From Virgibacillus natechei (lineage in GTDB: Bacteria; Bacillota; Bacilli; Bacillales; Amphibacillaceae): a DNA stretch of 64,000 nt. Below the pieces are notes generated by a model. The model was given only the letters and a program-made list of their open reading frames with translations, was not told where the DNA came from and ran no database searches. A program made the position numbers and the translations under genes. Positions 10,607-41,731 of this stretch are shown piece after piece. Location of the stretch: contig NZ_CP110224.1 in NCBI RefSeq assembly GCF_026013645.1, forward strand, positions 1,736,001-1,800,000, given 5' to 3'. Each line of letters opens with the position of its first letter. Within the stretch, counting starts at the first letter, position 1.

Positions 10607-12640
10607 ATGAGAGCACGTGATTTGTCTGTACTTTTAGGTGTTATTTTAATAATTATTATGTTAGTTATTCCGCTACCTGGATGGCTATTAAGTGTACTCA
10701 TTTTATGCAATATAACATTAGCATTAATTGTTATCTTAGTATCTATGAATACCCAGGAAGCTTTACAATTTTCTGTTTTTCCTACTCTCTTATTGTTGTT
10801 AACTTTATTTCGACTTGGTTTGAACGTTTCGACAACTAGATCAATTTTATCCGAAGCAGATGCCGGTGGGGTGGTTGACACATTTGGGTCTTTTGTTATA
10901 GGAGGGAACCCACTTGTAGGTTTTGTTGTATTTGGAATTTTAGTTGTTATTCAATTTTTGGTTATTACAAAAGGTGCAGAGCGTGTGTCGGAAGTTGCGG
11001 CTCGTTTCACGTTGGATGCCATGCCTGGTAAACAAATGAGTATTGATGCAGATTTAAATGCTGGATTAATCTCGGAACATCAGGCTAAAGAAAGACGTGA
11101 AAAAGTTGAAAATGAAGCAGATTTCCATGGATCAATGGATGGTGCAAGTAAATTTGTTAAGGGAGACGCGATTGCTGGAATTGTAATTGTCCTAATCAAT
11201 ATTATATTTGGGCTGATAATAGGTATGGTTCAAATGGATATGTCTTTCCAAGAAGCAATCAATACATACATGGCTTTAACGATAGGAGATGGCTTGGTAA
11301 GTCAGATTCCTGCTATTTTAATTGCAACTGCAACAGGAATTGTTGTAACAAGAACGACAACTACTGGTAATCTAGGTTCAGAAGTAACTGGACAATTATT
11401 GCAATACCCAAAATTACTACTCATTGCCGCTGGAACAATCTTTATGCTAGGTTTCACACCAATCAACTTTTTTCTGACTACATTGCTTGCGAGTATATTG
11501 GGACTTAGCGGATATTTATTATTAAAACAGTCCAAGGAACCTGAAGTACCAGACATAGAGGAAGAGGATCAAACGGAAAGCTCTTCAATGAAGTCTTCTG
11601 AGAATGTAGTAAATCTATTAAATATGGATCCAATTGAATTTGAATTTGGTTATGCACTTATACCGCTAGCTGATTCCAATCAAGGCGGTGATTTATTAGA
11701 CCGTATCATTATGATTCGCAGACAATTAGCTATAGAGCTTGGGGTAGTAATTCCTGTTGTTCGAATACGAGATAACATACAGCTCAATCCGAATGAATAC
11801 CGTTTAAAGGTTAAAGGAAATGAAGTAGCATCAGGTGAATTACTATTAGATCATTATTTAGCTATGGCGCCTGATATAGATGACGATCATATAGATGGAA
11901 TTGATACGAAGGAACCAGCCTTTGGGTTGCCCGCAAAATGGATTACAGAAGATAATAAAGATGATGCTGAATTATCAGGTTATACAGTTGTTGATCCGCC
12001 ATCAGTTGTCTCCACCCATATCACGGAAGTCATCAAGCATGTTGCTCACACGTTGTTGGGAAGGCAGGAAACGAAGCAATTAATTGACCATTTAAAGGAG
12101 AACTATCCAATATTAGTGGAAGAAGTTACCCCAGAACCATTAGCGACGGGTGATGTTCAAAAAGTTCTAGCCAAACTACTTAGAGAAAATATATCCATAC
12201 GTAACTTGCCAATCATTTTTGAAACACTGGCAGATTTTTCTAAAATGACAAACGACACAGAGTTACTGGGAGAGTATTCTAGGCAAGCATTATCATCGCA
12301 AATCACCAAACAATTTGTACATGATGATATGTCCCTAAAAGTTATCACTGTATCAGGAAAAGCGGAAAAGATGATTGCCGAAAATATTCAGCAAACGGAG
12401 CATGGTAATTATTTAGCATTAGATCCGGAATCACAGCAGCTTATTATTAAAAAAATACATGAAGAGGTAGAAAAACTATCACTACAGGAAGAAACAGCAA
12501 TTGTATTATGTTCACCGGCAATTCGAATGTATCTAAAGCAACTATTGGATCGATACCTGCCACAAGTCGTTGTGTTGTCATATAATGAATTAGAACCAAA
12601 TGTACAAATTCAAAGCGTAGGGGTGGTGAATGTAGCGTGA
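10607..12640 (+). CDS. flhA: flagellar export gate component FlhA
   Basis: A 677-residue protein. The N-terminal half contains about eight membrane segments and the FHIPEP-family signature region (RFTLDAMPGKQMSIDADL, about residue 140). The C-terminal half is the cytoplasmic domain that forms the nonameric ring docking chaperone-substrate complexes. The length equals B. subtilis FlhA (677). GAGGAG precedes the ATG. The stop overlaps the GTG start of flhF (GTGA), indicating tight coupling. Confidence 0.97.
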   Translation: MRARDLSVLLGVILIIIMLVIPLPGWLLSVLILCNITLALIVILVSMNTQEALQFSVFPTLLLLLTLFRLGLNVSTTRSILSEADAGGVVDTFGSFVIGGNPLVGFVVFGILVVIQFLVITKGAERVSEVAARFTLDAMPGKQMSIDADLNAGLISEHQAKERREKVENEADFHGSMDGASKFVKGDAIAGIVIVLINIIFGLIIGMVQMDMSFQEAINTYMALTIGDGLVSQIPAILIATATGIVVTRTTTTGNLGSEVTGQLLQYPKLLLIAAGTIFMLGFTPINFFLTTLLASILGLSGYLLLKQSKEPEVPDIEEEDQTESSSMKSSENVVNLLNMDPIEFEFGYALIPLADSNQGGDLLDRIIMIRRQLAIELGVVIPVVRIRDNIQLNPNEYRLKVKGNEVASGELLLDHYLAMAPDIDDDHIDGIDTKEPAFGLPAKWITEDNKDDAELSGYTVVDPPSVVSTHITEVIKHVAHTLLGRQETKQLIDHLKENYPILVEEVTPEPLATGDVQKVLAKLLRENISIRNLPIIFETLADFSKMTNDTELLGEYSRQALSSQITKQFVHDDMSLKVITVSGKAEKMIAENIQQTEHGNYLALDPESQQLIIKKIHEEVEKLSLQEETAIVLCSPAIRMYLKQLLDRYLPQVVVLSYNELEPNVQIQSVGVVNVA

Positions 12641-28600: not shown

Positions 28601-29892
28601 GCTATGTAAAAGGGTATGCTTCTGATAAGCAGCTGGTCTATAAAAATGCCGAAGTGGATCGTCTTGTTCAAGGAAGTACGGGTGTGAAAAGGACAACGGG
28701 ACAACACCCAGGTGGTATCATTGTTGTACCTGAGGAGAAGGAGATATTTGATTTCACGCCAATTCAATTTCCGGCGGATGACCGAAAAAGTGAATGGAAA
28801 ACAACCCATTTTGATTTTCACTCCATTGACAGTAATCTATTGAAACTAGATATTCTAGGGCATGATGATCCAACCGTCATTCGCATGCTTCAGGATTTAA
28901 GCGGCATTGATCCGGAAACCATCCCCATCAATGATGCAGAAGTAATGAAAATATTTTCAGGTCCGGAATCACTTGGGGTTACACCAGAACAAATTAATTG
29001 TAAAACAGGTACATTGGGTGTTCCAGAATTTGGAACAAATTTTGTAAGGCAAATGCTTGAAGATACAAAGCCTTCTACATTTGCAGAACTTGTTATGATT
29101 TCAGGTTTATCACATGGTACGGATGTTTGGTTAGGGAATGCACAGGAATTAATTAACGATGGTATCTGTGAGCTTGCGGATGTAATTGGTTGCCGTGATG
29201 ACATTATGGTTTATTTAATGCACAAAGGTTTAGAGGCATCGCTTGCTTTTAATATTATGGAGTTTGTTCGTAAAGGTAAAGGGTTGAAGGATGAGTGGAT
29301 AACGGAAATGAAAAAGCATGGTGTTCCCGATTGGTATATTGAATCTTGTAAAAAAATCAAGTATATGTTTCCGAAGGCCCATGCTGCTGCTTATGTTTTA
29401 ATGGCTGTTCGAATCGCTTATTTTAAAGTACATCATCCCATCTTCTTTTACGCAGCTTATCTTACGGTGAGAGCTAGTGATTATGAACTGGATACGATGG
29501 TTAAAGGTTCAGAAACGATTAAACAGCGAATAGAAGGTATAGCAATAAAAGGAAATGAGATGTCCCCGAAAGAGAAAGGTTTGTTAACTGTACTGGAAGT
29601 CACGTTAGAAATGTGTCAGCGCGGGTATTCGTTGAAAAAAGTTGATCTTTATAAATCAAGTGCTACCGAATTTATCGTAGATGGTGATGCACTAATTCCT
29701 CCCTTTAATGCAGTTGACGGATTAGGGACCAACGCAGCTCTTAACATTGTAAAAGCGCGTGAAGAAGGTGAATTTCTATCCAAGGAGGATCTTCGCGAAC
29801 GAAGCAGGATATCTAAGACTGTACTGGAATACTTGGATAATCATGGCTGTTTAGCCGGAATGGAAGATAAAAATCAATTATCATTGTTCTAG
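25603..29892 (+). CDS. polC: DNA polymerase III alpha subunit, PolC type
   Basis: The 1429-residue replicative polymerase of Firmicutes. Order of domains: an N-terminal domain, an OB fold (about 230-320) and a PHP domain split by the proofreading exonuclease. PHP starts near residue 329 with VELHAHTTMSQMDA; the exonuclease starts near 414 with VVFDVETTGLSA. Then come a Cys4 zinc site (CTECHYNEF...CPNC, about 903-930), the palm with DIDLNFSG (about 957) and LDILGHDDPT (about 1080), and a C-terminal region ending NQLSLF. B. subtilis PolC has 1437 residues. GGAGGAG precedes the ATG. Confidence 0.98.
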   Translation: MDISKKEKMNLLLKQLQIPEEYMKDYFLESYLEKLEVYKQTRTWHFHIHVKRVLPLNMYLLLTSKLRETFQQANTVDLTIVAEDKGCDGDTIKGYWKNFIQSITNLSPAYKDLVHNQTPQVNNNKLTLTARNEAEATALKKRLEDSFQTYCKKIGAMVYTLEINVKTEEEAIQKFKEQTALEDQQVVLKTVQEKEKRDKDKSQNDNKPLLLGYKINDDVMQMEEIQDEERRVTVQGYIFAVDIRKLRSGRSLLIIKATDYTDSLQIKMFSKGDEDAAKFESVKEGMWVKARGSIQTDMYTNELAMMANDIHEVKVKVRMDEATDEEKRVELHAHTTMSQMDAVVTPSALVTQAAKWGHKAVSITDHAGVQAFPDAHAAGQKHGIKVLYGVEANLVDDGVPIAYNENDLDLESGTYVVFDVETTGLSAVYDTIIELAGVKIQHGEIVDRFESFSNPHHPLSQTTTDLTGITDEMVKNAPEVDDVLKDFYEWMGDSILVAHNASFDIGFLNQGFKRIDYEKVKNPVIDTLELARFLYPELKNHRLNTMCKHLDIELTQHHRAIYDAEATGYLLWKFVQGLLKNEIINHNQLNNHMGEGNAYQRSRPHHCILFAKTQEGLKNLYKLVSFAHINYFYRVPRIPRSLLKKYRTGLLVGSACDKGEVFETMMQKSEEEAENIAEFYDYIEVQPPANYAHLIEKDLVQNEAQILDIIRKLVEMGQRMNKLVTATGNVHYIDDHDKMYRQILIASQAGNPLSRQTLPDTPFRTTNEMMECFSFLGVEKAKEIVVTNTNTLAEEIEEVSPVQDGLFTPNIEGSDQEIRDTCYNRAKELYGEEVPQLVVDRLEKELASIIDNGFSVIYLISQKLVKKSLNDGYLVGSRGSVGSSLVATLTEITEVNPLPPHYACTECHYNEFITDGSVGSGFDLPEKNCPNCNSPLTMDGQDIPFETFLGFKGDKVPDIDLNFSGEYQPIAHNYTKELFGEDYVYRAGTIGTVAEKTAYGYVKGYASDKQLVYKNAEVDRLVQGSTGVKRTTGQHPGGIIVVPEEKEIFDFTPIQFPADDRKSEWKTTHFDFHSIDSNLLKLDILGHDDPTVIRMLQDLSGIDPETIPINDAEVMKIFSGPESLGVTPEQINCKTGTLGVPEFGTNFVRQMLEDTKPSTFAELVMISGLSHGTDVWLGNAQELINDGICELADVIGCRDDIMVYLMHKGLEASLAFNIMEFVRKGKGLKDEWITEMKKHGVPDWYIESCKKIKYMFPKAHAAAYVLMAVRIAYFKVHHPIFFYAAYLTVRASDYELDTMVKGSETIKQRIEGIAIKGNEMSPKEKGLLTVLEVTLEMCQRGYSLKKVDLYKSSATEFIVDGDALIPPFNAVDGLGTNAALNIVKAREEGEFLSKEDLRERSRISKTVLEYLDNHGCLAGMEDKNQLSLF

Positions 29893-29930: not shown

Positions 29931-30203
29931 AGAACAAAAGCGCAAGCGCCCGTTTAGCAACGTACAAACTGGAGCACTTCGCAATGAGATAAAGGAAACA
30001 CGATGAACGAAGTGAGTCGATGTTGACTTTCACCACAAGGGTATAAGTGCGACTTTACTTCTGCCTACGCCTCTGGCTTGGAATCAGTAAGTCTTCTTTA
30101 TCGTAGTGGAGGAGTGTGAAGTTTGATAGTTGATGGGCGCTGGAGCTGGACGTGGATATTCCAATATATAAGTTATCCACAGCATTTAATTCTATAGTTT
30201 CCT
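29931..30203 (+). repeat. long dispersed repeat, copy A
   Basis: A ~273-base non-coding segment from AGAACAAAAGCGCAAGCGCC to TATAGTTTCCTA. It is nearly identical to the reverse complement of 40283-40559, differing by about 20 scattered substitutions and a few single-base indels. It is richer in GC than its surroundings. Its ends carry GCGCAAGCGCCCG and GGGCGCTGGAGCTGGACG, able to form structure. It occupies most of the first half of the 611-base gap between polC and rimP. The rest of that gap holds two hairpins (30328-30353, 30387-30413) and the rimP SD. No transposase is associated. Confidence 0.9.
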
Positions 30204-30327
30204 ACACTAGCGTTGCATAAAATAGGAGTCTACCGCTCTTTTATAATGGCATACAAACCTCAATAATCTTGCATCATTCATTCTCTTGTGATATACTTTT
30301 TTTGGTAAGTTATGATACGAACGGTAA

Positions 30328-30353
30328 AAAGAGTGGGTAAATGCCCACTCTTT
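30328..30353 (+). terminator. rho-independent terminator after polC/repeat A
   Basis: AAAGAGTGGG (30328-30337) pairs perfectly with CCCACTCTTT (30344-30353) around a six-base loop. The A- and T-rich flanks would let it work in both directions. Confidence 0.72.
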
Positions 30354-30386
30354 CTTCATACTTCTATTCGATTTTGGTTTAAACTT

Positions 30387-30413
30387 CCCCCTTGCCATAT
30401 CTTCCGGCAGGGG
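30387..30413 (+). terminator. CCTTGCC/GGCAGGGG hairpin upstream of rimP
   Basis: CCCCTTGCC pairs with GGCAGGGG (30406-30413) with one wobble or bulge and is followed by TTTT. A sister hairpin with the same stem occurs upstream of spoIIIE at 49269-49295. It stands about 90 bases before rimP and could be an attenuator or the end of an upstream transcript. Confidence 0.5.
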
Positions 30414-30503
30414 TTTTATATTGATTTGGAAGGTACTTAAATGAAAATAGGTATGTTTGTCCATAATAAGTGGTAAATACAACTGAATAAAGGAGGATAA
30501 ATA

Positions 30504-30974
30504 GTGAGTTCCCAAGTAATTAAAACAACCGAGGAATTATTGCAACCAATTTTAGAGAATAAGAACTTGGATTTGGTTGATATTGAATACGTAAAAGAAG
30601 GTAAAAATTGGTTTCTTCGTATCTATATAGATAAATCTGGCGGAGTTGATATTACAGAGTGTGGAGACGTTTCCGAAGAGTTGAGTGAAAAACTTGATGA
30701 AATAGATCCAATTCAAGAAAACTATTTTTTGGAAGTGTCTTCACCCGGTGTCGAGCGACCATTAAAAACAAAAGAAGATTTTGAAATGAATATAGATAAA
30801 AATATTTTTGTTAAACTATACGAACCAATTGAAGGTGAAAAGGAATACGAAGGTATTTTGAAGGCATTTACAAATGATATGTTGACGATAGAGTATAAAG
30901 TAAAAACTCGTAATAAACAAGTAGAAATTCCATACAACAAAGTAGCAAAAGCAAGACTTGCTGTAATGTTTTAA
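30504..30974 (+). CDS. rimP: ribosome maturation factor RimP
   Basis: A 156-residue RimP (formerly YlxS), exactly the B. subtilis length, needed for 30S maturation. It shows the family blocks [27 protein letters not shown] and [15 protein letters not shown], with a C-terminal SH3-like domain. The start is GTG, supported by AAAGGAGGA. It opens the rimP-nusA-ylxR-ylxQ-infB operon, the canonical arrangement in most bacteria. Confidence 0.96.
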
Positions 30975-30990
30975 AGGGGGAAATATAAAA

Positions 30991-32097
30991 GTGGGCAATC
31001 AATTGTTTGATGCGATTGATCATTTGGCTAAGGAAAAGGGAATTGATAAAGGGATTCTAATGGAAGCGTTGGAGGCAGCCTTAATATCCGCATATAAGAA
31101 AAACTTTAAGTCAGCTTCAAACGTCAGAGTCGAACTTAATGAAGAAACAGGTAAAATGGGTGTCTTTTCTAGAAAAACCATAGTAGAAGAAGTAGAAAAT
31201 AATCAAGAAGAAATATCACTGGATGAAGCGATAAAATTGGATCCAAAATATGAGTTAGAGGATGTTATTGAAGTTGAAGTCACGCCAAAGGACTTTGGTC
31301 GTATTGCAGCACAAGCAGCCAAACAGGTGGTTACACAACGCGTGAGAGAAGCTGAACGTGGTATTATATTTAGCGAGTATTCAGATCGCGAAGAAGATGT
31401 AATGACAGGTATTATTCAGCGAAAAGATTCACGGTTTGTATATGTGAATTTAGGAAAGGTTGAAGCTAAGCTTGCAGAGGCTGAGCAAATGCCGACAGAG
31501 GAATATTTTGTTCATGATCGCTTAAAAGTATTTGTTACGAAAGTAGAAAGCACGAGTAAAGGACCGCAAATTTATATTTCCAGATCACATCCTGGTCTCC
31601 TAAAACGACTGTTTGAAATGGAGGTTCCAGAAATTTATGATGGAATCGTGGAAATTAAATCGGTATCAAGAGAAGCTGGAGATCGTTCTAAAATATCGGT
31701 TCATGCTCCCGATCCTGAGATTGACCCTGTTGGATCGTGCGTTGGGCAAAAGGGGCAGCGTGTGCAGGTTATTGTTGATGAATTAAAAGGTGAAAAAATT
31801 GATATTGTAGAGTGGTCAGAAGATCCCGTGGTATATGTAACAAACGCGCTTAGTCCATCAAAAGTAGTAGATGTATTAGTGAACGAGGAAGAAAAAGCGA
31901 CGACAGTAATTGTTCCAGACTACCAATTATCTTTAGCCATTGGAAAACGCGGTCAAAATGCTCGCTTGGCCGCTAAGTTAACAGGCTGGAAAATTGATAT
32001 TAAAAGTGAATCGGATGCAAGAGCGGAAGGACTTATAACAGATACAGACGATGAAGAAACTTATTCTGACAACAATGATGAAGACTTGTTCGAATAA
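30991..32097 (+). CDS. nusA: transcription termination/antitermination factor NusA
   Basis: A 368-residue NusA (371 in B. subtilis). It has the N-terminal RNA-polymerase-binding domain (to about 125), an S1 domain (about 135-200, DVMTGIIQRKDSRFVYVNLG) and two KH domains (about 230-340; VGSCVGQKGQRVQVI and SLAIGKRGQNARLAAKL). It ends with the acidic tail typical of Gram-positive forms, without the AR repeats of enteric NusA. GTG start with AAAGGGGG upstream. It modulates pausing and intrinsic termination. Confidence 0.97.
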   Translation: MGNQLFDAIDHLAKEKGIDKGILMEALEAALISAYKKNFKSASNVRVELNEETGKMGVFSRKTIVEEVENNQEEISLDEAIKLDPKYELEDVIEVEVTPKDFGRIAAQAAKQVVTQRVREAERGIIFSEYSDREEDVMTGIIQRKDSRFVYVNLGKVEAKLAEAEQMPTEEYFVHDRLKVFVTKVESTSKGPQIYISRSHPGLLKRLFEMEVPEIYDGIVEIKSVSREAGDRSKISVHAPDPEIDPVGSCVGQKGQRVQVIVDELKGEKIDIVEWSEDPVVYVTNALSPSKVVDVLVNEEEKATTVIVPDYQLSLAIGKRGQNARLAAKLTGWKIDIKSESDARAEGLITDTDDEETYSDNNDEDLFE

Positions 32098-32109
32098 GGA
32101 GGGTATAAA

Positions 32110-32391
32110 TTGGCTCAAAAGAGAAAAATACCGCAACGAAAATGTATTGTTACAAATGAAATGAAGCCCAAAAAAGACTTAATTCGTGTTGTCCGTAACA
32201 AAGAAGGAGATGTCTTTGTTGATACGACAGGCAAGAAAAATGGTCGAGGTGCCTATTTGTCACGTGATATTGATGTTATTTTACAAGCCGAGAAGAATAG
32301 TACGTTAAATCGGCAATTAAATACAGAAGTGGATGCAGCCATTTATGAGGAATTGAAACAGCTCGTTGAGGATAAACGAAATGAAGAATAA
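32110..32391 (+). CDS. rnpM: RNase P modulator RnpM (YlxR)
   Basis: A 93-residue basic YlxR-family protein with RKCIVTNEMKPKKDLIRVV and the conserved KKNGRGAYLSRD loop. The family was long described as nucleic-acid binding. The B. subtilis member has been reported to bind and modulate RNase P RNA, hence the name RnpM. The start is TTG, with AGGAGGG ideally spaced. It overlaps the next gene by 11 bases. Family membership is firm. Confidence 0.92.
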   Translation: MAQKRKIPQRKCIVTNEMKPKKDLIRVVRNKEGDVFVDTTGKKNGRGAYLSRDIDVILQAEKNSTLNRQLNTEVDAAIYEELKQLVEDKRNEE

Positions 32392-32686
32392 TTACTTAAA
32401 TATGTTAGGACTCGCATATAGAGCCAGAAAATGCTCTCTTGGGGAAGAAACGATTGTAAAAGATATTCAGCAAAAGAGGGCAAAGTTAGTACTTATGGCT
32501 AATGATGTCGGACCACAAACACGGAAGAAACTATTGAATAAATGTAAGACATATGAAATACCAATTCGTGTTGTGGATGATAGGGAAACATTATCCAACG
32601 CTATTGGAAAATCCCAAAGGGTAGCTGTTGCCATTTTAGATGCAGGATTTGCTACTAAGATTAAATCGCTACTCGGGTCTAATTAA
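32381..32686 (+). CDS. rplGA: L7Ae-family ribosomal protein YlxQ/RplGA
   Basis: A 101-residue L7Ae/L30e-fold RNA-binding protein of the k-turn-binding family, with [20 protein letters not shown] and [17 protein letters not shown]. In B. subtilis (YlxQ, 100 residues) it binds k-turn RNAs; its cellular target is not settled. ATG 32381 is chosen because GAGGATAA lies upstream inside ylxR; the TTG 32366 alternative has no SD. Confidence 0.92.
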
Positions 32687-32702
32687 ATTCGGGGGTGAAC
32701 GT

Positions 32703-34844
32703 ATGAGTAAAATACGTGTATATGAATATGCTAAGCAGAAAAACACAACAAGTAAAGATGTAATTAATCATTTAAATAACTTAAATATTGAAGTTTCAAA
32801 CCATATGTCAACTATTACATCGGAAACAGCTTCAAAATTAGATGAAAAATATAACGCTGCATCTAGTTCAAATGTTAAAAACCAACAGCCAAAGAAAGAG
32901 AACGCATCTAATAAAGCAGGACAATCAATGAATAAAAAAGAGAATCCAGGAAAATCTAATAATTCGAGTAAGCCGCAATCAGGACAGCAAAGAAAACCGC
33001 AACAAAATAGACATAACAATCAAAATCAAAAAGGTAGAAGAGGACGAGGCAATAAACCTGTCGGAAAGAAACAACCACCAGTTAGAAACATACCTGAGCG
33101 AATTACTTATAGTGATACATTAGCAGTTAGTGATCTAGCAAGTAAGCTTAATATGCAAACAGCAGAGATCATTAAAAAGCTTATGTCTCTCGGAGTAATG
33201 GCAACGAAAAACCAAGATCTTGACGATGATACAGTTGAATTAATTTGTACTGATTTAAATATAGAAGTTGAAAAAGAAATTATCTTGGAAGACACAGATT
33301 TTGATAAATATAGGGTAGAAGAAAAAGATGCTGATCTTATTGAAAGACCTTCTGTTGTTACCATAATGGGGCACGTAGACCATGGTAAAACAACGTTACT
33401 GGATTCGATTCGTCACACAAAAGTAACTGCAGGAGAAGCTGGAGGTATTACACAGCATATTGGAGCATATCAAGTAGAAGATCAAGGGAAAAAAGTTACA
33501 TTCCTTGATACACCAGGTCATGCTGCGTTTACTAGCATGCGTTCTCGCGGAGCACAAGTAACGGATATTGCGATTTTAGTTGTTGCTGCTGATGATGGCG
33601 TCATGCCACAAACAGTAGAAGCTATCAGCCATGCGAAAGCTGCTGAAGTACCAATTATCGTAGCCGTAAATAAAATGGACAAAGAAGGCGCGAATCCAGA
33701 TCGTGTTATGCAGGAATTGACTGAATATGAACTGATTCCTGAAGCTTGGGGTGGTGACACAATTTTCGTTAATGTGACAGCAACAAAAGCTGAAGGTATC
33801 GATGATATATTGGAAATGATTTTACTTGTCTCAGAAGTTGAAGAATTAAAAGCCAATCCGAATACGAATGCAACTGGTACCGTGATTGATGCACAGCTCG
33901 ATAAAGGGCGTGGATCTGTAGCAACATTATTGGTTCAAAATGGTACGTTACAAGTTGGAGACATGGTTGTAGTAGGAAACACCTATGGTCGTGTGCGGAC
34001 TATGGTTAACGATGTTGGTCAGCGTGTTTCAGAGGCTGGACCATCTACACCGGTAGAAGTAACTGGATTAAATCAAGTGCCTCAAGCAGGCGATCAATTC
34101 ATGGTGTTTGTTGATGAGAAAAAGGCGCGTCATATTGGGGAAGCTCGAGAGCAAAAATATATTGTTGAAAATCGTAGTCAACAATCAAAAATCAGTTTAG
34201 ACGATTTATTTGAACAAATTAAACAAGGTGAAATGAAAGAAATTAACATTATTATTAAAGCAGATGTCCAAGGATCTGCTGAAGCACTAGCTAATTCCCT
34301 ACAGAAGATAGAGGTAGAAGGTGTGAACATTAAAATTATTCATACAGGTGTTGGTGCGATAACAGAATCGGATATTATTTTGGCTTCGGCTTCCAATGCA
34401 ATTGTAATTGGATTTAGTGTTCGTCCTGATGTCAATGCGAAAAAAGCTGCTGATTCAGAAAAAGTTGATGTACGCTTGCATCGTGTTATATATACTGCGA
34501 TTGAAGAAGTTGAATCAGCCATGAAAGGGTTGCTTGATCCAGAATACGAGGAAAAAGTCATTGGACAGGTGGAAGTGCGTGAAATATATAAAGTTTCTAA
34601 GATAGGAACAATCGCTGGAAGCTATGTAACCGATGGTAAAATCACTCGTAATGCTGGTATCAGAGTTATTCGCGATGGTGTTGTTCAATTTGAGGGAGAA
34701 ATCGATGCCTTGAAACGCTTTAAAGATGATGTTAAAGAAGTAGCTAAAAACTATGAATGCGGAATTACTGTTAAAAATTTCAATGATATTAAAGAGGGCG
34801 ATGTTATTGAAGCATTCATTATGGAAGAAATAGAACGTAAATGA
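32703..34844 (+). CDS. infB: translation initiation factor IF-2
   Basis: A 713-residue IF-2 (716 in B. subtilis). It has an IF2_N module at the start, an unstructured Lys/Asn/Gln/Gly-rich linker (about 55-145), and a second IF2_N (about 155-205). The GTPase domain (from about 217) has the P-loop [22 protein letters not shown] and VNKMDKEGA, followed by domains II, III and the C-terminal fMet-tRNA-binding domain. ATG 32703 follows GGGGGTGAAC. An upstream extension into ylxQ is rejected. The end overlaps ylxP as ATGA. Confidence 0.98.
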
Positions 34845-35119
34845 TCATCTATGCTGAAGTTGAATGTATGATGTATGAGGGACATTCACTTAAGTCGAAA
34901 CGATCAATTATGAAACGGTTAATGGCTAAGTTGCGCAATGAATTTAATGTAACTGTTACGGAGCTGGATTATCATGATTTGTGGCAACGAACAAAGGTGG
35001 GTATTGTTACGATTTCGACAGATCGAAAGCATGCTGAACAAGTGATTCAGGAAGTATTGCGAGTAATTGATACGTATTCGGAAATGGAGCGAACAATTAC
35101 AGAAGTTGAGCGCTTATAA
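34841..35119 (+). CDS. ylxP: DUF503 protein YlxP
   Basis: A 92-residue YlxP-family protein with [19 protein letters not shown] and [16 protein letters not shown]. The function is unknown. The family is a ferredoxin-like fold found between infB and rbfA across Firmicutes, so a role in ribosome biogenesis is only inferred. Its ATG overlaps the infB stop, and no separate SD is obvious, so it is coupled to infB translation. Confidence 0.92.
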
Positions 35120-35165
35120 GCTTTCGGTTTCGAGATAAAAGCATTCGTTAGGCGAGGTGAATTAT

Positions 35166-35507
35166 ATGTCAGATATACGTGCAAATCGTGTAGCAGAGCA
35201 AATGAAGAAAGAGTTAGGAGAAATTTTTACTCAAAAGTTAAAAGATCCGCGAGTAGGATTTGTTACGATTATGGATGTAGAAGTAACGGGCGATCTTCAA
35301 CAAGCAAAAGTATTTATTTCTGTTTTAGGTGAGGAACAAGAAAAGCAGAATACACTTTCAAGTCTTGCAAAAGCAAAAGGATTTATTCGTTCAGAGATTG
35401 GACAGCGAATTCGTTTACGAAAAACACCTGAAATTACTTTTGAAATAGATGAAGCTTTTGAACATGGTAATCGTATAGAAACAATTTTACGCGATCTAAA
35501 CAAATAA
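35166..35507 (+). CDS. rbfA: ribosome-binding factor A
   Basis: A 113-residue KH-fold factor needed for 16S 5'-end processing and cold growth. It shows [19 protein letters not shown] and [21 protein letters not shown] 35166 is preceded by GAGGTGA; the GTG at 35157 overlaps the SD. Its transcript ends at the strong terminator immediately downstream, so truB onward may have separate expression. Confidence 0.96.
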
Positions 35508-35517
35508 TCACATGGAC

Positions 35518-35551
35518 AATCTGGCACGCTTCAAGGCGTGTCAGATTTTTC
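35518..35551 (+). terminator. rho-independent terminator after rbfA
   Basis: AATCTGGCACGC (35518-35529) pairs with GCGTGTCAGATT (35536-35547), with one wobble, followed by a T run. It is a strong intrinsic terminator closing the rimP-rbfA operon. Confidence 0.88.
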
Positions 35552-35557
35552 CGTGCT

Positions 35558-35710
35558 TTTTAAACAGGCTGTTTTCTAAAAGCTTGGGACTACGGTTACT
35601 CGTCCCACCGAAAAGAATTGTCATTTCGTCTCATCTTGCTTTTTCTGCCGTATATCATCACTGCGAATATTTTAAAGCCAGCAATACGTACGAAAAGAGC
35701 CTTTTAAAAC
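35558..35710. repeat. MITE-like element with AGGCTxTTTTC ends
   Basis: About 150 bases between rbfA and truB bounded by AGGCTGTTTTC (35566-35576) and the near-complement GAAAAGAGCCT (35692-35702); similarity of the ends extends several bases outward. An open frame of 71 codons spans it but lacks a ribosome site and a recognisable product. The ends differ from the TGTTCAAAAA family, so this is a second element family. Confidence 0.5.
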
Positions 35711-35731
35711 TACATATGGGAGGCTGAATAT

Positions 35732-36628
35732 ATGAATGGGATATTGCCATTATGGAAACCAAGTGGTATGACATCACACGATTGTGTAATGCGTATACGT
35801 AGAATTTTTAATACCAAGAAAGTTGGTCATACTGGTACGCTTGATCCAGAAGTAGAAGGAGTGCTTCCTATATGCATTGGTCACGCAACTAAAATTGTGT
35901 CTTATTTAACAGAGACAAACAAAACATATGTTGCAGAAGTAATGCTGGGAAAAGCTACCGATACGGAGGACAGCTATGGAAAAATGATTGAAGAAAGCAG
36001 GGTAACAAAATTCCCTTCTGAAAATGAAATAGATAATGTGCTGCAATTATTTAAAGGAAGAATTAGACAGGTTCCACCCATGTACTCTGCAGTAAAAGTT
36101 AAAGGAAAAAAACTATATGAGTATGCAAGAGAAAATGAAACAGTAGAGCGTCCTAGTCGAGAAGTTATCATTCATGACTTAAAGCGTTTATCCTCTCCTG
36201 AACAAGAGAGAAATGTTTTTCAGATAGAAATTGTCTGTTCCAAAGGGACTTATATACGGACATTATGTGTTGATGTCGGTAAGAAATTGGGTTATCCTGC
36301 ACATATGTCAGGTTTAATCAGAATGGAATCAGCTTCCTTCACAAAAGAAAATACAGTTACGTTTAACGATTTAGAAGAAGCAGCAAAATTAGATCAACAA
36401 AATCAACTATTGATGCCTGTTATGAAAGGCCTTGATCATTTGGATATTCTTTATGTGGATCCAGAAACAAAACGGAAAGTTCTCCATGGACAAAAAATGG
36501 ATAAACCTATAGAAGTCCTCCATACTGATCCATTTGTCGTCATGTGTGACGACAAATTATTAGCAATATATCAAACACATCCTGATAAACCTGAACAAAT
36601 AAAACCAGTTCGTGTTTTTAATGGATGA
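35732..36628 (+). CDS. truB: tRNA pseudouridine-55 synthase TruB
   Basis: A 298-residue enzyme forming the universal pseudouridine 55 in the tRNA T-loop. The catalytic Asp38 lies in GHTGTLDPEVEGVLP. IGHATKIVSYL, QVPPMYSAVKVKGKKLYEYAR and SKGTYIRTLCVDVGKKLG are the other conserved blocks, and a C-terminal PUA-like extension follows. GGGAGG is spaced nine bases from the ATG. This SD lies at the edge of the repeat element, so expression may come from readthrough or a promoter within it. Confidence 0.97.
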   Translation: MNGILPLWKPSGMTSHDCVMRIRRIFNTKKVGHTGTLDPEVEGVLPICIGHATKIVSYLTETNKTYVAEVMLGKATDTEDSYGKMIEESRVTKFPSENEIDNVLQLFKGRIRQVPPMYSAVKVKGKKLYEYARENETVERPSREVIIHDLKRLSSPEQERNVFQIEIVCSKGTYIRTLCVDVGKKLGYPAHMSGLIRMESASFTKENTVTFNDLEEAAKLDQQNQLLMPVMKGLDHLDILYVDPETKRKVLHGQKMDKPIEVLHTDPFVVMCDDKLLAIYQTHPDKPEQIKPVRVFNG

Positions 36629-36650
36629 AAAAAAGCGTAGGTGAATGATT

Positions 36651-37595
36651 ATGAGAACATTTGAGCTAACACATCCACATTCCTTAATGACAGAAGATTT
36701 ACCTAGTGTGGTTAGTGCAATAGGTTTTTTTGATGGTGTACATAGAGGGCATCAAAAAGTAATACAGACTGCGGTAACAGAAGCTAAGAACAGAAATATG
36801 GAGAGTGCAGTTATTACATTTCATCCACATCCATCGGTTGTATTAAAAAAAGGTACGCAGCACGTGCAATATATTACTCCTATACGAGAAAAAAAAGAAA
36901 TGCTACAAAAATTAAATGTTGATCGATTGTATGTTATAGAGTTTAATAAGGAATTGTCTTCTTTGTCACCGCAGCGTTTTATTGACCAATTTATTATAGG
37001 GTTAAATATAAAACATTTAGTCGCAGGATTTGATTTTTCTTACGGACATAAAGGGCAAGGCAATATGGATGTGATGGAAGAACATACAAGGGGAGAATTC
37101 ACCTATACAGCAGTTGATAAAGTAACTATCGATGACGAAAAAATCAGCTCAACCAAAATCAGAGAATTTCTAAGTACAGGAAAAATGCAAGAGGCCAATG
37201 TATTGCTGGGCAGACCACTAAACTTGGCAGGTGTTGTTATTAGGGGGGATCAGCGAGGCAAGGCGATCGGATATCCTACAGCTAATTTACAACTGAGCCC
37301 AGACGCATTATTACCAAAGTCTGGAGTTTATGCAGTAAAAGTCCAGTATAAAAATGAAACGTATGAGGGAATGGCTAGTATTGGTACAAATCCAACCTTT
37401 ACAGAAGAGCGAACAGATTTGTCTGTTGAAGTAAATATTTTTGATTATAATAATGATCTATATGGGGAAGAATTGTTTATTGAGTGGCACAAATATTTTC
37501 GTGAAGAGAAGAAGTTTGATGGGGTTTCGGAACTTATTGATGAAATTGCTAATGATGAAATAAAGATACGTCGTTTTTTTTCAAATCAAAACTAA
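36651..37595 (+). CDS. ribF: bifunctional riboflavin kinase / FAD synthetase
   Basis: A 314-residue enzyme making FMN then FAD. The N-terminal nucleotidyltransferase domain has GFFDGVHRGHQKVI (HxGH at 31-34) and the ISSTKIREFL motif. The C-terminal flavokinase domain (from about 183) has GRPLNLAGVVIRGDQRGKAI and GYPTANLQL. ATG 36651 is preferred to 36645 because AGGTGA is six bases upstream. It is called ribC in B. subtilis. The gene is in its usual place between truB and rpsO. Confidence 0.96.
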   Translation: MRTFELTHPHSLMTEDLPSVVSAIGFFDGVHRGHQKVIQTAVTEAKNRNMESAVITFHPHPSVVLKKGTQHVQYITPIREKKEMLQKLNVDRLYVIEFNKELSSLSPQRFIDQFIIGLNIKHLVAGFDFSYGHKGQGNMDVMEEHTRGEFTYTAVDKVTIDDEKISSTKIREFLSTGKMQEANVLLGRPLNLAGVVIRGDQRGKAIGYPTANLQLSPDALLPKSGVYAVKVQYKNETYEGMASIGTNPTFTEERTDLSVEVNIFDYNNDLYGEELFIEWHKYFREEKKFDGVSELIDEIANDEIKIRRFFSNQN

Positions 37596-37616
37596 TTCGG
37601 GTTTCTTACTTTTCTC

Positions 37617-37645
37617 TTGCATTTTCCTCAAAAAAGAGATAAGAT
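37617..37645 (+). promoter_or_regulatory. sigma-A promoter for rpsO
   Basis: TTGCAT (37617-37622) and TAAGAT (37640-37645) are separated by 17 bases. It lies just after the ribF stop and leaves a ~90-base leader before rpsO. Confidence 0.6.
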
Positions 37646-37664
37646 TATCAATGTAAAACCATTG

Positions 37665-37736
37665 CTTGGCAAATCGTAACTCCGACGTTTGCTAGGGAAC
37701 TGGGGATATACAATATATGATTAGGAGGTGAGCCAG
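37665..37736 (+). promoter_or_regulatory. possible S15 autoregulatory leader
   Basis: The rpsO leader contains an interrupted stem, GGCAAA-TCG near 37668 opposite CGACG-TTTGC near 37683, followed by the GGAGGTGAG ribosome site. S15 is known to repress its own mRNA through structured leaders in several bacteria, including Bacillaceae. Assigning this leader to that mechanism is inference from position and the visible stem. Confidence 0.35.
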
Positions 37737-38006
37737 ATGGCTATCACACAAGAACGCAAGAATGAAATTATTAGTGAATATAAAGTTCACGATAATGACA
37801 CTGGTTCTCCAGAAGTACAAATTGCAGTACTTACTGAAGAAATCACAAAATTAAATGAGCATTTACGTACGCATACAAAAGACCACCATTCACGTCGTGG
37901 GCTTTTAAAAATGGTTGGTAAACGCCGTAATTTACTAAACTACCTACGTAATAAAGATATTATCCGTTATCGTGATCTCATTAAAAGTCTCGGTTTACGT
38001 CGATAA
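37737..38006 (+). CDS. rpsO: 30S ribosomal protein S15
   Basis: The 89-residue S15, the family's exact length. It shows [20 protein letters not shown] and [20 protein letters not shown], which bind the 16S central-domain three-way junction. ATG 37737 has a perfect TTAGGAGGTGAG ribosome site. It has its own promoter and is followed by a terminator overlapping its stop codon. Confidence 0.98.
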
Positions 38007-38033
38007 AAAGCAGGAGCAATCCTGCTTTTTTTA
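38005..38033 (+). terminator. rho-independent terminator after rpsO
   Basis: AAAAAGCAGG (38005-38014) pairs with CCTGCTTTTT (38021-38030), followed by more T. It starts within the rpsO stop codon. Confidence 0.9.
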
Positions 38034-38051
38034 TCTTTTAACTACATAAAA

Positions 38052-38080
38052 TTTACATTTCTGTCAATAAACTATAAAAT
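38052..38080 (+). promoter_or_regulatory. sigma-A promoter for pnp
   Basis: TTTACA (38052-38057) and TAAAAT (38075-38080) with a 17-base spacer, 40 bases before the pnp start. This allows pnp transcription independent of rpsO. Confidence 0.65.
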
Positions 38081-38119
38081 GGGTAATAGAATGCTTTTTT
38101 GAAAGGAGCAAAATAATAA

Positions 38120-40234
38120 ATGTCAGAAGCTAAACAAGTTTTTTCAACAGAAATTGCTGGAAAAAAGTTTTCTGTCGAAATAGGAGAACTGGCAAAACAA
38201 GCGAATGGAGCATGTATGATACACTATGGAGATACATCGGTATTATGTGTAGCAACAGCTTCAAAAGAGCCAAAGGATTTGCCGTTTTTTCCATTGACCG
38301 TAAACTATGAAGAACGCTTATATGCGGTTGGGAAAATTCCAGGGGGCTTCATTAAACGGGAAGGAAGGCCAAGTGAGAAAGCAACGTTGACTTCACGCTT
38401 AATTGATCGCCCTATTCGTCCATTATTCCCAGATGGTTTTAGAAATGAGGTACAAGTAATCAGTACTGTCATGAGTGTTGAACAGGATAATCCATCAGAC
38501 ATTGCTGCAATGATTGGATCATCAATCGCTTTAAGCATCTCCGATATTCAGTTTGCTGAACCTATAGCTGGTGTTAAAGTTGGACGAGTTGACGGAGAAT
38601 TCATTATCAACCCTGGTATTGAACAAGAAGAAAAAAGTGATATTGCGTTAACAGTAGCTGGTACAAAAGATGCCATTAATATGGTAGAAGCTGCAGCAGA
38701 GGAAGTACCTGAAAACATTATGCTTGATGCTATCATGTTTGGCCACGAGGAAATTAAACGTCTCGTTGCATTTCAAGAGGAAATAGTACAGGCTGTAGGT
38801 GTTGAAAAATCATCTGTGACGTTATTTGAACCAGATGAAGAAATAGCTACTAACGTAGAGCAAAAAGCAAAAGATAAATTGGCTGCAGCTATTCAAGTAT
38901 TTGAAAAACATGAAAGAGAAGAAGCTATTACGAAAGTGAAAGATGAGACACTAGAACAGTATGCGGAAGAAGAACCAGAAGTTATTAAACAAGTGAAATC
39001 TGTTCTGGATCATATGACTAAAGAAGAAGTACGTCGTCGTATCACGAAAGAAAAACTTCGTCCTGATGGTCGTAAAATCGATGAGATTCGTCCATTGTCA
39101 TCAAGAATTAATGTATTGCCAAGAACGCATGGATCTGGCTTGTTTACACGCGGACAAACACAAGCGCTTAGTATCTGTACACTTGGAGCATTAGGGGATG
39201 TACAGATTTTGGATGGGTTGGATCTTGAGGAGTCCAAACGCTTTATGCATCATTATAATTTCCCCCAGTATAGTGTCGGTGAAACAGGACCTATTAGAGG
39301 GCCAGGTCGTCGAGAAATTGGACATGGAGCATTAGGCGAACGAGCGCTTGAACAAGTTATTCCTTCAGATAAGGAATTTCCGTACACCATACGTTTAGTA
39401 TCAGAAGTATTAGAATCAAACGGTTCTACATCTCAAGCAAGTATATGTGCTAGTACACTCGCTATGATGGATGCAGGGGTACCCATTAAAGCACCTGTTG
39501 CAGGTATTGCCATGGGACTTGTCAAATCAGGAGATGACTATTCTATTTTAACTGATATTCAAGGCATGGAAGATGCTTTAGGTGATATGGACTTTAAAGT
39601 TGCAGGTACTGAGAATGGTGTAACAGCTCTACAAATGGATATAAAAATCGATGGCTTATCAAAAGAAATTTTGGAAGAAGCATTAAATCAGGCTAAAATT
39701 GGCCGTATACAAATCTTAGATTCAATGCTCGCCACAATTGAAGAACCAAAAACACAGCTTTCTGAATACGCACCTAAGATTTTAACAATGAACATTAACC
39801 CTGATAAAATCCGATCTGTTATTGGGCCGAGCGGTAAACAGATTAATCAAATTATTGATGATACAGGAGTTAAAATTGATATTGAGCAGGATGGCGGTGT
39901 CTTTATTTCGTCAACAGATGCTTCTATGAATGAGAAGGCTAAAAAGATTATTGAAGATCTTGTGAGAGAAGTTGAAGTTGATCAAATGTATTTGGGAACT
40001 GTAAAAAGGATTGAGAAATTTGGAGCCTTTGTAGAAATATTTAAAGGCAAGGATGGTCTCGTTCACATTTCTGAGTTGGCAGAAGAACGCACAAATAAAG
40101 TGGAAGATGTTGTATCCATCGGTGACGAAATAATGGTTAAAGTGAAAGAGATTGATCATCAAGGTCGCGTGAATCTTTCCCGTAAAGCAGTTCTAAAGGA
40201 AGAGCAAGAAAAACAGAAACAAGCTGAGTCATAG
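38120..40234 (+). CDS. pnp: polynucleotide phosphorylase
   Basis: A 704-residue PNPase (705 in B. subtilis), the phosphorolytic 3'-5' exoribonuclease of the RNA degradosome. Two RNase PH core domains are separated by the helical domain; the first has [20 protein letters not shown] and the second has [14 protein letters not shown] and [20 protein letters not shown] domain (about 555-615, [15 protein letters not shown]) and an S1 domain (about 621-690) complete it. AAAGGAG is upstream. It is followed by a strong terminator. Confidence 0.98.
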
Positions 40235-40248
40235 ATAATAGAGATACA

Positions 40249-40277
40249 AGAAGCTGGCAACCCAGTTTCTTTTTTTA
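40249..40277 (+). terminator. rho-independent terminator after pnp
   Basis: AGAAGCTGG (40249-40257) pairs with CCAGTTTCT (40262-40270) with one wobble, followed by seven T residues. Confidence 0.88.
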
Positions 40278-40282
40278 TTTCA

Positions 40283-40559
40283 TAGGAAACTATAGAATTT
40301 AAATGCTGTGGATAACTTATACACTGAAATAGCCACGTCCAGCTCCAGCGCCCAGCAACTATCAAACTTCACACTCATCCACTACGATAAAGAAGACTTA
40401 CTGATTGCCAAGCCGGCAGGCGCAGGCAGAAGTAAAGTCGCACTTATACCCTTGTGGTGAAAGTCAACATCGACTCACTTCGTTCGTCGTGTTTCCTTTA
40501 TCTCATTGCGGGGTGCTCCAGTTTGTACGTTGCTAAACGGGCGCTTGCGCTTTTGTTCT
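40283..40559 (-). repeat. long dispersed repeat, copy B (inverted)
   Basis: A ~277-base segment that, read on the minus strand, runs from AGAACAAAAGCGCAAGCGCC to CTATAGTTTCCTA and matches copy A at 29931-30203 almost throughout. It starts six bases after the pnp terminator. Differences from copy A are mostly single substitutions plus a small insertion (CGCCTGCCGGC in place of CGCCTCTGGC). With copy A it brackets the rimP-pnp cluster. The remainder of this 552-base gap holds the candidate structured RNA at 40600-40711. Confidence 0.9.
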
Positions 40560-40599
40560 TTGCAGATACAAAAGTATAAACTTTGAATGAAAACAAATA

Positions 40600-40711
40600 C
40601 ATTTTCATGCTAGATGGTGGCTCTATATAGGTGAGCCATGTTAGTTCCCTATCAATATAAGTGCGGGTTTTGGCTACCGCCACAAAGCTTGGCGATGAGC
40701 CAAGTTTTTTC
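40600..40711 (+). ncRNA. candidate structured leader RNA / attenuator upstream of ylxY
   Basis: A gene-free stretch with stacked hairpins: TGGCTC / GAGCCA around TATATAGGT (about 40617-40637), a GCGG/CCGC-containing element near 40662-40682, and a final CTTGGC-gatga-GCCAAG hairpin (40688-40704) followed by six T. GAGCCA occurs both in the first stem and in the terminator arm, so alternative pairings are possible, as in riboswitches or attenuators. The TAGGTGAGCC part recalls magnesium (M-box) leaders, but the rest does not fit, so no class is assigned. Confidence 0.4.
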
Positions 40712-40786
40712 TAAGTAAAGTTAGTACATACGTTTTATACATACCCTGTCCTTTTATTTCATATGAATGCTACAGGGGGGATTTGA

Positions 40787-41731
40787 ATGTATCGTTATCG
40801 GAAATTTGTTAACTTAGTTGTTTTTCTTTTCATTATTCTTGTAGCTTATAATCCAGAACATAATCCATTTGTTATTAATGAAGTTGGTTCAATAACCGAA
40901 GTAACACGTACAGAGGATGTACTATATAAGGAAATACAAGATAAAAGTCCAGAGTATTCACAAGATCCTCAGAATGCATATATAGATAGTGTTTGGAAAA
41001 AAACGCCTGGAAGAAATGGGGCTAAAGTAAATCTAGAAGAATCTTACGAGAAAATGAAAGAAGAAGGTACATTCAAAGAATCTTTACTTGTATATGATCA
41101 AACTCCTCCAGAAATAAAGCTTAAGGATTTACCAGCTTCTCCTATATTCCGTGGTCACCCAGAAAAGGATATGGTTTCTCTTTTATTTAATGTTTCGTGG
41201 GGGGAAGAACATATTCCCGATATATTGAATATTTTAAATGAACACAGTGTAAAAGCAACGTTTTTTATCGAGGGGAAATGGGCTCAGCAGAATTCTGAAT
41301 CTGTGAAAATGATTGATGAGCAAGGTCATGTTGTAGGAAATCATGCATATAATCATCCAGATATGACCAGATTAACAGAACAGGAAAACACAAGACAAAT
41401 AGCACAGACTAACGAAATTATTAAAGCGATCACTGGCAAAGACTTAAAATGGTTTGCACCACCCAGCGGCAATCATACTGAACAAGTTGTGGAGGTAGCA
41501 GACGCTTTAAATATGGAAACAATACTTTGGACTGTAGATACAATTGATTGGAAGAACCCATCTGTTTCTGTTATGATAAACCGAGTAAATAATAAACTCC
41601 ATCCAGGTGCAACCATTCTAATGCATCCGACATCTTCCATCGTAGAAGGACTTGAACCATTAATTAAGAATATTAAAGAAAACGGCTACCGAATTGGTAC
41701 AATTGAAAAGTTGTTAAATGAAGAAAGATAA
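40787..41731 (+). CDS. ylxY: YlxY-type polysaccharide deacetylase-like protein
   Basis: A 314-residue protein with an N-terminal membrane anchor or signal (about residues 8-22, VNLVVFLFIILVAYN) and a NodB-homology domain (about 120-310). KATFFIEGKWAQQ, the metal motif HAYNHPD and WTVDTIDW are present. The usual catalytic TFDDG motif is replaced by FNVSWG, so the general-base aspartates are missing. The enzyme may be inactive or altered, a feature I also associate with B. subtilis YlxY. It is likely extracellular and wall- or spore-related, but the substrate is unknown. GGGGGGA SD. Confidence 0.87.
   Translation: MYRYRKFVNLVVFLFIILVAYNPEHNPFVINEVGSITEVTRTEDVLYKEIQDKSPEYSQDPQNAYIDSVWKKTPGRNGAKVNLEESYEKMKEEGTFKESLLVYDQTPPEIKLKDLPASPIFRGHPEKDMVSLLFNVSWGEEHIPDILNILNEHSVKATFFIEGKWAQQNSESVKMIDEQGHVVGNHAYNHPDMTRLTEQENTRQIAQTNEIIKAITGKDLKWFAPPSGNHTEQVVEVADALNMETILWTVDTIDWKNPSVSVMINRVNNKLHPGATILMHPTSSIVEGLEPLIKNIKENGYRIGTIEKLLNEER

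Follow-up and report, generated by a model that had tools for sequence, protein, structure and literature searches.

Dispersed, covarying repeats behind intrinsic terminators in Virgibacillus natechei, with an IS91-family transposase as candidate mover

Why do two near-identical non-coding repeats, in inverted orientation, bracket the rimP-pnp gene cluster of Virgibacillus natechei? The question is raised by a 64,000-nt stretch of DNA, called the window here, which belongs to a 3.87-Mb genome in one contig; by PNP comparison, the nearest named relatives are Oceanobacillus species. Copy A (29932..30204, + strand) lies in the gap between the end of polC at 29892 and rimP at 30504, and copy B (40281..40558, - strand) in the gap between the end of pnp at 40234 and the next gene at 40787. 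Copy B is 95% identical to copy A across query 1-274. The inverted arms pair as 29931-30072/40418-40559 (142 nt, 97% identity) and 30082-30189/40299-40406 (108 nt, 94% identity), which confirms the bracketing repeats described in an earlier note on this DNA. We find that A and B bracket the cluster by chance, as two members of a dispersed family of modular elements, here called type 1. On balance, comparison of ends and landing sites inclines us slightly towards regarding this family as non-autonomous mobile elements, moved in trans by an IS91-family HUH transposase through rolling-circle transfer.

The host genome holds about 60 type-1 copies, scattered and non-coding, as judged from patterns for both ends followed by reading of the places. 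One pattern for each end hit 58 and 57 places and the reversed pattern none, while a search with copy A gave at least 92 matching pieces among the best 40 of 72 candidates. One of the 59 positions used for counting (L175) is a chance pattern match inside a gene, still included in the terminator and TTATCCACA counts below. Copies at 3658845 (96%), 2215830 and 1272571 (both 95%) are as close to copy A as copy B is. There is thus no special kinship between A and B. Their bracketing is also ordinary for the copy number: of the 59 gaps that separate adjacent copies, 14 measure 10.63 kb or less, against a random expectation of 8.8. The earlier note had proposed that the pair could flip the operon, and recombination between ~275-nt inverted repeats of ~95% identity 10 kb apart is possible in principle. 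An inversion switch is nonetheless extremely improbable given the ordinary spacing and the lack of a special link between the copies, and the flip is unsupported because the genes from polC to ylxY keep the same order on a single strand in 80/80 named loci of relatives. This count took those of the nine genes that were found per locus; 75 of the 80 hold the polC end and rimP.

Copies with both ends are 119-729 nt long. We call the best-folding strand R and the opposite one T. Copy A, with R on the + strand, begins with GAACAAAAGCGC and ends with ..TATAGTTTCC; copy B, with R on the - strand, starts with CATAGGAAACTATAG and ends with GCGCTTGCGCTTTTGTTC when its T-strand (+) is read. These ends are unlike by eye, so there are no terminal inverted repeats of the kind found in a DDE miniature inverted-repeat transposable element (MITE). 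In the first set of 39 copies, 37 have GTTC as their 3' end; at the left junction NTTG is commoner, by eye. Minimal copies consist of query 1-99 joined to 168-274. Longer copies have additional hairpins at fixed positions, each a self-contained module; one such module, of ~72 nt, is present in 0 to 5 tandem units and found at 30028..30099 (+) in copy A and as one unit at 40389..40462 (-) in copy B. An optional module matches the Rfam family Bacillaceae-1 (RF01690), with 19 matches spread over 18 of 20 loci scanned and scoring 29.6-43.3 bits, of which nine reach the gathering cut-off of 35 bits; a second optional module matches only below that cut-off. The window itself gave no Rfam match at gathering cut-offs. 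Some copies are truncated (L173, L179), and two separate loci (L065, L066) carry identical rods, as we term the folded body. A cobalamin riboswitch (103.8 bits) adjoins one type-1 copy at L065 1798-1990.

The type-1 body is a covarying modular rod, far above controls. On the R-strand it has 41 consensus pairs, of which 27 are changed on both sides, compared with 13.3 in shuffles, and 96.1% of cells are paired, compared with 84.0 in shuffles. None of the 500 shuffles reached the real value in any of the five covariation measures, and each measure drops when the partners are slid. The covariation that the earlier note had suggested looking for is thus present. Our first strand assignment, that of Bacillaceae-1, was dropped because folding both strands favoured the other one: consensus energy was -29.6 kcal/mol on the Bacillaceae-1 strand vs -45.8 on its opposite. 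The R-strand folds better in 30/30 minimal rods and in 45/55 copies of the host genome, and the rods show 25 A-C vs 11 G-U cells, counted against the first assignment. The strand difference is smaller after shuffle correction (mean z -4.3 vs -5.0; R-strand better in 22/30). The Rfam Bacillaceae-1 match therefore lies on the strand opposite to the best rod fold. Such a fold could belong to RNA or to single-stranded DNA alike. A covariance model trained on the 30 minimal rods, run over the window with filters off, picked out copies A and B with scores of 70.3 and 63.2 bits, against 18.1 for the best match after them.

Where the copies lie is as characteristic as how they fold. Copy B begins immediately behind the intrinsic terminator of pnp, a hairpin and T-run at 40250..40276 (+) with the T-run at 40270-40276. 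Genome-wide, 39 of 59 positions have a terminator on the T-strand side at a distance of no more than 60 nt, compared with 1/54 on the other side and 9/400 random window sites; read on the T-strand, the T-run in these 39 begins 10-21 nt before the element. A co-directional gene lies in front of 41 of the 54 copies with both ends, at a median of 75 nt from its stop codon, and one copy lies behind an RsaE/RoxS-like sRNA (64.8 bits, under the cut-off of 79). In relatives the preference is weaker, though still for one side. With both orientations read, 11/39 rods had a terminator on the T-strand side and 1/39 on the other, all 11 terminators being 58-70 nt behind the rod. That run took in 59 loci and tested 39 rods from 31 of them, 28 loci being dropped (27 without a recognised rod or too near an end, one from the host genome); the tested rods include a few overlapping or doubtful calls (e.g. 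L040, L054, L056, L257, L268). A one-orientation version, which left out 29 of 53 loci, gave 10/24 vs 3/24, with random sites at 9/200.

The family extends well beyond its host. DNA search found type-1 elements in 31 of 61 genomes and the covariance model found the rod in 43 of the 61 (E <= 1e-3) and in 27 of 250 genomes of the class (E <= 1e-5), the host being included each time. Model matches per genome range among relatives from 0 to at least 51; these counts are lower bounds, as the model recovers at least 27 in the host against ~60 copies. Some matches elsewhere represent a shorter form of ~120 nt with weaker scores. Individual sites vary: genome G002 lacks the element at the pnp site, genome G001 has its own insertion behind rpsO (rpsO-pnp) that is absent in G021, and O. 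rekensis has a degenerate type-1 copy in the polC-rimP gap in the opposite orientation. Together with the copy number and the covariation, such empty sites bear out the note's suggestion of a mobile or structured element, mobility being the inferred part. In relatives, type-1 copies also form head-to-tail arrays. Arrays elsewhere often finish, by eye, with a partial trailing copy where they meet host DNA, as though the final unit had been cut short (L271, L283, L284, L286, L290). In O. rekensis a different rod-like element (L071, ~12220-12350), starting with GTCTAGCT and ending with CCGCTTTTGTTTT, lies behind the pnp terminator as copy B does here, again by eye. Plasmid and phage collections searched with the type-1 element gave no match, and literature searches yielded no relevant paper by sequence strings and, among the titles listed by topic, none on this family.

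A candidate mover came from the ends. Searched alone in the host genome, the 17-nt start motif AAGAAAGTATAAAATTT occurred at 33 places, its reversed control at 8; the places include type-1 copies, chance matches, type-2 repeats (see below) and a longer element, represented by three copies or remnants. One of these three in the host genome (G000) has an IS91-family transposase interrupted by a stop, with Zn_Tnp_IS91 and Y2_Tnp domains, and was inserted immediately at a type-1 3' end. An intact relative in G021 matches the NCBIfam transpos_IS91 equivalog at 316 bits. The motif was found at four of seven IS91 loci, three exact and one (G003) with two changes, and precedes the transposase frame in G000, G021, G043 and G003, at 48-54 nt from the open frame in G000 and G021. 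Type-1 starts at 14 loci of other genomes match it on average at 14 of 17 positions, compared with 7.6 for motif shuffles, in a register set by eye. At the 3' end, IS91 elements in G000, G021, G043 and two plasmids finish with a hairpin and TTTTCTT[G/A] and type-1 copies with a hairpin and TTTTGTTC; the pattern in common is a hairpin followed by TTTTNTT.

These IS91 elements also share the landing sites. A terminator-like hairpin and T-run precedes six of eight copies; one of the six hairpins is a type-1 end, one is the end of a preceding IS91 element and one lies 31 nt off. The six include two plasmid sites, in Pediococcus pentosaceus p_2 and Lacticaseibacillus paracasei unnamed5, where 99%-identical elements lie at different places, each directly behind a terminator. 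The left site of the plasmid element is empty in three of six related plasmid stretches; two of the six (L345, L346), as well as L350, gave no readable junction, and further Pediococcus plasmids with the same neighbour gene as L340 were not counted as extra sites. In G043 the IS91 copies are head-to-tail. A Y2_Tnp match occurs in 8 of 61 genomes, seven of them element-positive, and the median number of model matches per genome is at least 25.5 with Y2_Tnp vs at least 4 without (one-sided p 0.015; counts are lower bounds). A search of IMG/VR viral contigs for the IS91 protein gave no confirmed match.

We interpret type 1 as at most a dependent partner of IS91, not IS91 itself, because its copies are 119-729 nt long and copies A and B are free of any overlapping IS91 frame. 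The type-1 3' end, hairpin plus TTTTGTTC, resembles an intrinsic terminator. If the transposase recognises such ends, it would mistake host terminators, as well as the ends of copies already in place, for targets, and these look-alikes would account for the position behind terminators and for the head-to-tail arrays alike. The arrays are compatible with rolling-circle movement. The rod folds, as RNA or single-stranded DNA, on the strand complementary to the one with the terminator T-run.

Several observations weigh against this interpretation. Most element-positive genomes (36/43) have no Y2_Tnp, and presence and absence of the two are unassociated (Fisher p 0.42); because Y2_Tnp is found in only 8/61 genomes, most element-bearing genomes would have lost the helper or use another. 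The start motif was not found at three of the seven IS91 loci (L328, L329, L331, the last without a recognised frame), and part of its similarity to type-1 starts is AT-richness, a single shuffled motif reaching 12/17 with probability 0.018. The eight copies in G018 resemble, by eye, another IS91 group. Terminators are missing in front of two of the eight IS91 copies (L323, L326) and were not detected at 28 of the 39 elements in relatives, and the GTTC end is absent in several later-added type-1 copies (L164, L169, L176, L178). Among 44 copies with a GCATA-like start, the flanking dinucleotides match in 26 vs 17.2 permuted (p 0.0002, kinship of copies ignored). Such a 2-nt match across insertions departs from textbook IS91, IS1294 being reported without direct repeats (PMC6052338). 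Finally, type-1 movement is itself inferred.

Other movers would leave some of the same traces. Retro-insertion, in which R-strand RNA is copied by a reverse transcriptase (RT) primed from a nicked terminator T-run, as a bacterial short interspersed element (SINE) with help from a group II intron RT, fits the polarity, makes the better-folding strand the would-be template and agrees with the truncated copies; group IIC introns are described as inserting behind Rho-independent terminator stem-loops (PMC7923331). RT presence (PF00078) is unrelated to the elements, however, which occur in 24/35 RT-positive and 19/26 RT-negative genomes (Fisher p 0.78), and G016 has 19 model matches without an RT. 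The copies are too short for an RT frame, and no Rfam group II domain was found in five loci scanned to E 5, so that we give this route little credence. Mobilisation by an HUH transposase of the Y1 type, from IS200/IS605 or RAYT, in the way supposed for REP elements, has on its side that Y1_Tnp is common (52/61 genomes) and that elements occur in 39/52 Y1-positive and 4/9 Y1-negative genomes (Fisher p 0.11). Still, an element lies near a RAYT-like gene in only 2/20 RAYT-like loci, and G016, G017, G035 and G048 are element-positive without a Y1_Tnp match; its chances appear similarly small. We rejected RT and Y1 transposase as helpers, since their presence does not follow the distribution of the elements.

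It may also be asked whether the elements move at all. A host-serving 3'-end RNA or terminator cassette, protecting mRNA ends or acting as a back-up terminator, could have spread through gene conversion and be maintained by selection, while moving little or not at all today. Strong covariation, the position behind co-directional genes and copy ends made of a hairpin and T-run all agree with this. It accords poorly with the swing in copy number among relatives, the empty orthologous sites, the identical rods at two loci and the head-to-tail arrays, and we consider it unlikely.

Among known systems the IS91 family (IS91, IS1294, ISCR; HUH Y2 rolling-circle elements) is like type 1 in the 5' start motif, the 3' hairpin and T-run (with GTTC/CTTG for some copies), the head-to-tail arrangement and the place behind terminators; in the published account of IS1294, that element is without terminal or direct repeats and targets GTTC or CTTG, with ter look-alikes (PMC6052338). 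Type 1 differs in having no transposase gene, a folded covarying rod as its body, and the 2-nt match. Pneumococcal BOX is likewise dispersed and built of modules, the inner one of which (boxB) can repeat in tandem, and its folding is RNA-like, but it has terminal inverted repeats and a proposed link to ISSpn2 (PMC3049150); unlike ends and the terminator as landing site set type 1 apart from it, by description. The note's comparison with bcr repeats holds in kind: like type 1, bcr1 of the Bacillus cereus group and Bhal-1 of B. halodurans are short dispersed stem-loop repeats of Bacillaceae (PMC2267715), a likeness drawn from their descriptions. Group IIC introns share the landing behind terminator stem-loops but differ in their RT frame and group II domains. 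The arrangement of REP/RAYT systems, a RAYT gene flanked by the repeat, was not found for type 1 among the 20 RAYT-like loci.

Some further features of the window and genome deserve mention. Directly behind copy B, at 40559..40725 (+; limits approximate, by eye), lies a probable type-2 repeat, shorter and ending in a terminator: a hairpin with AAGAAAGTATAAAAACT is followed by a terminator-like hairpin GGCTTGG..CCAAG TTTTCTAA. It is apparently unrelated to type 1. Its hairpin part has 16 genome matches, several behind terminators by eye (also L296, L299, L304, L313, L315). The type-1 tail contains the site TTATCCACA, which we take to be the DnaA-box consensus. It is an exact match in copy A (30173..30181, +) and copy B (40307..40315, -), the only two exact sites in the window, and is exact in 39 of 59 host-genome positions. 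A DnaA-box role for the tail site was rejected, as it is exact in only 4 of 14 loci of other genomes that have a tail. At 735-962 the window has a 114-nt direct duplication, 75% identical, within a 476-aa reading frame.

Many small dispersed bacterial repeats are without a known mover, and type 1 now gains a candidate helper, whose matching ends and landing sites, found also in named plasmids, make the question testable. The Bacillaceae-1 RNA, which its source table lists without a regulatory role, gains a physical context: the Rfam model covers the module alone, and in type 1 that module is a plug-in of a larger element. Somewhat more tentatively, type 1 may belong to a Bacillales-wide superfamily of non-autonomous rolling-circle elements that use terminators genome-wide as targets, with a covarying body, plug-in RNA motifs such as Bacillaceae-1, and each copy serving as the next landing site. 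Such a superfamily would be a bacterial counterpart of the non-autonomous Helitrons. If so, terminators would form an insertion niche that is safe for the host and renewable for the element.

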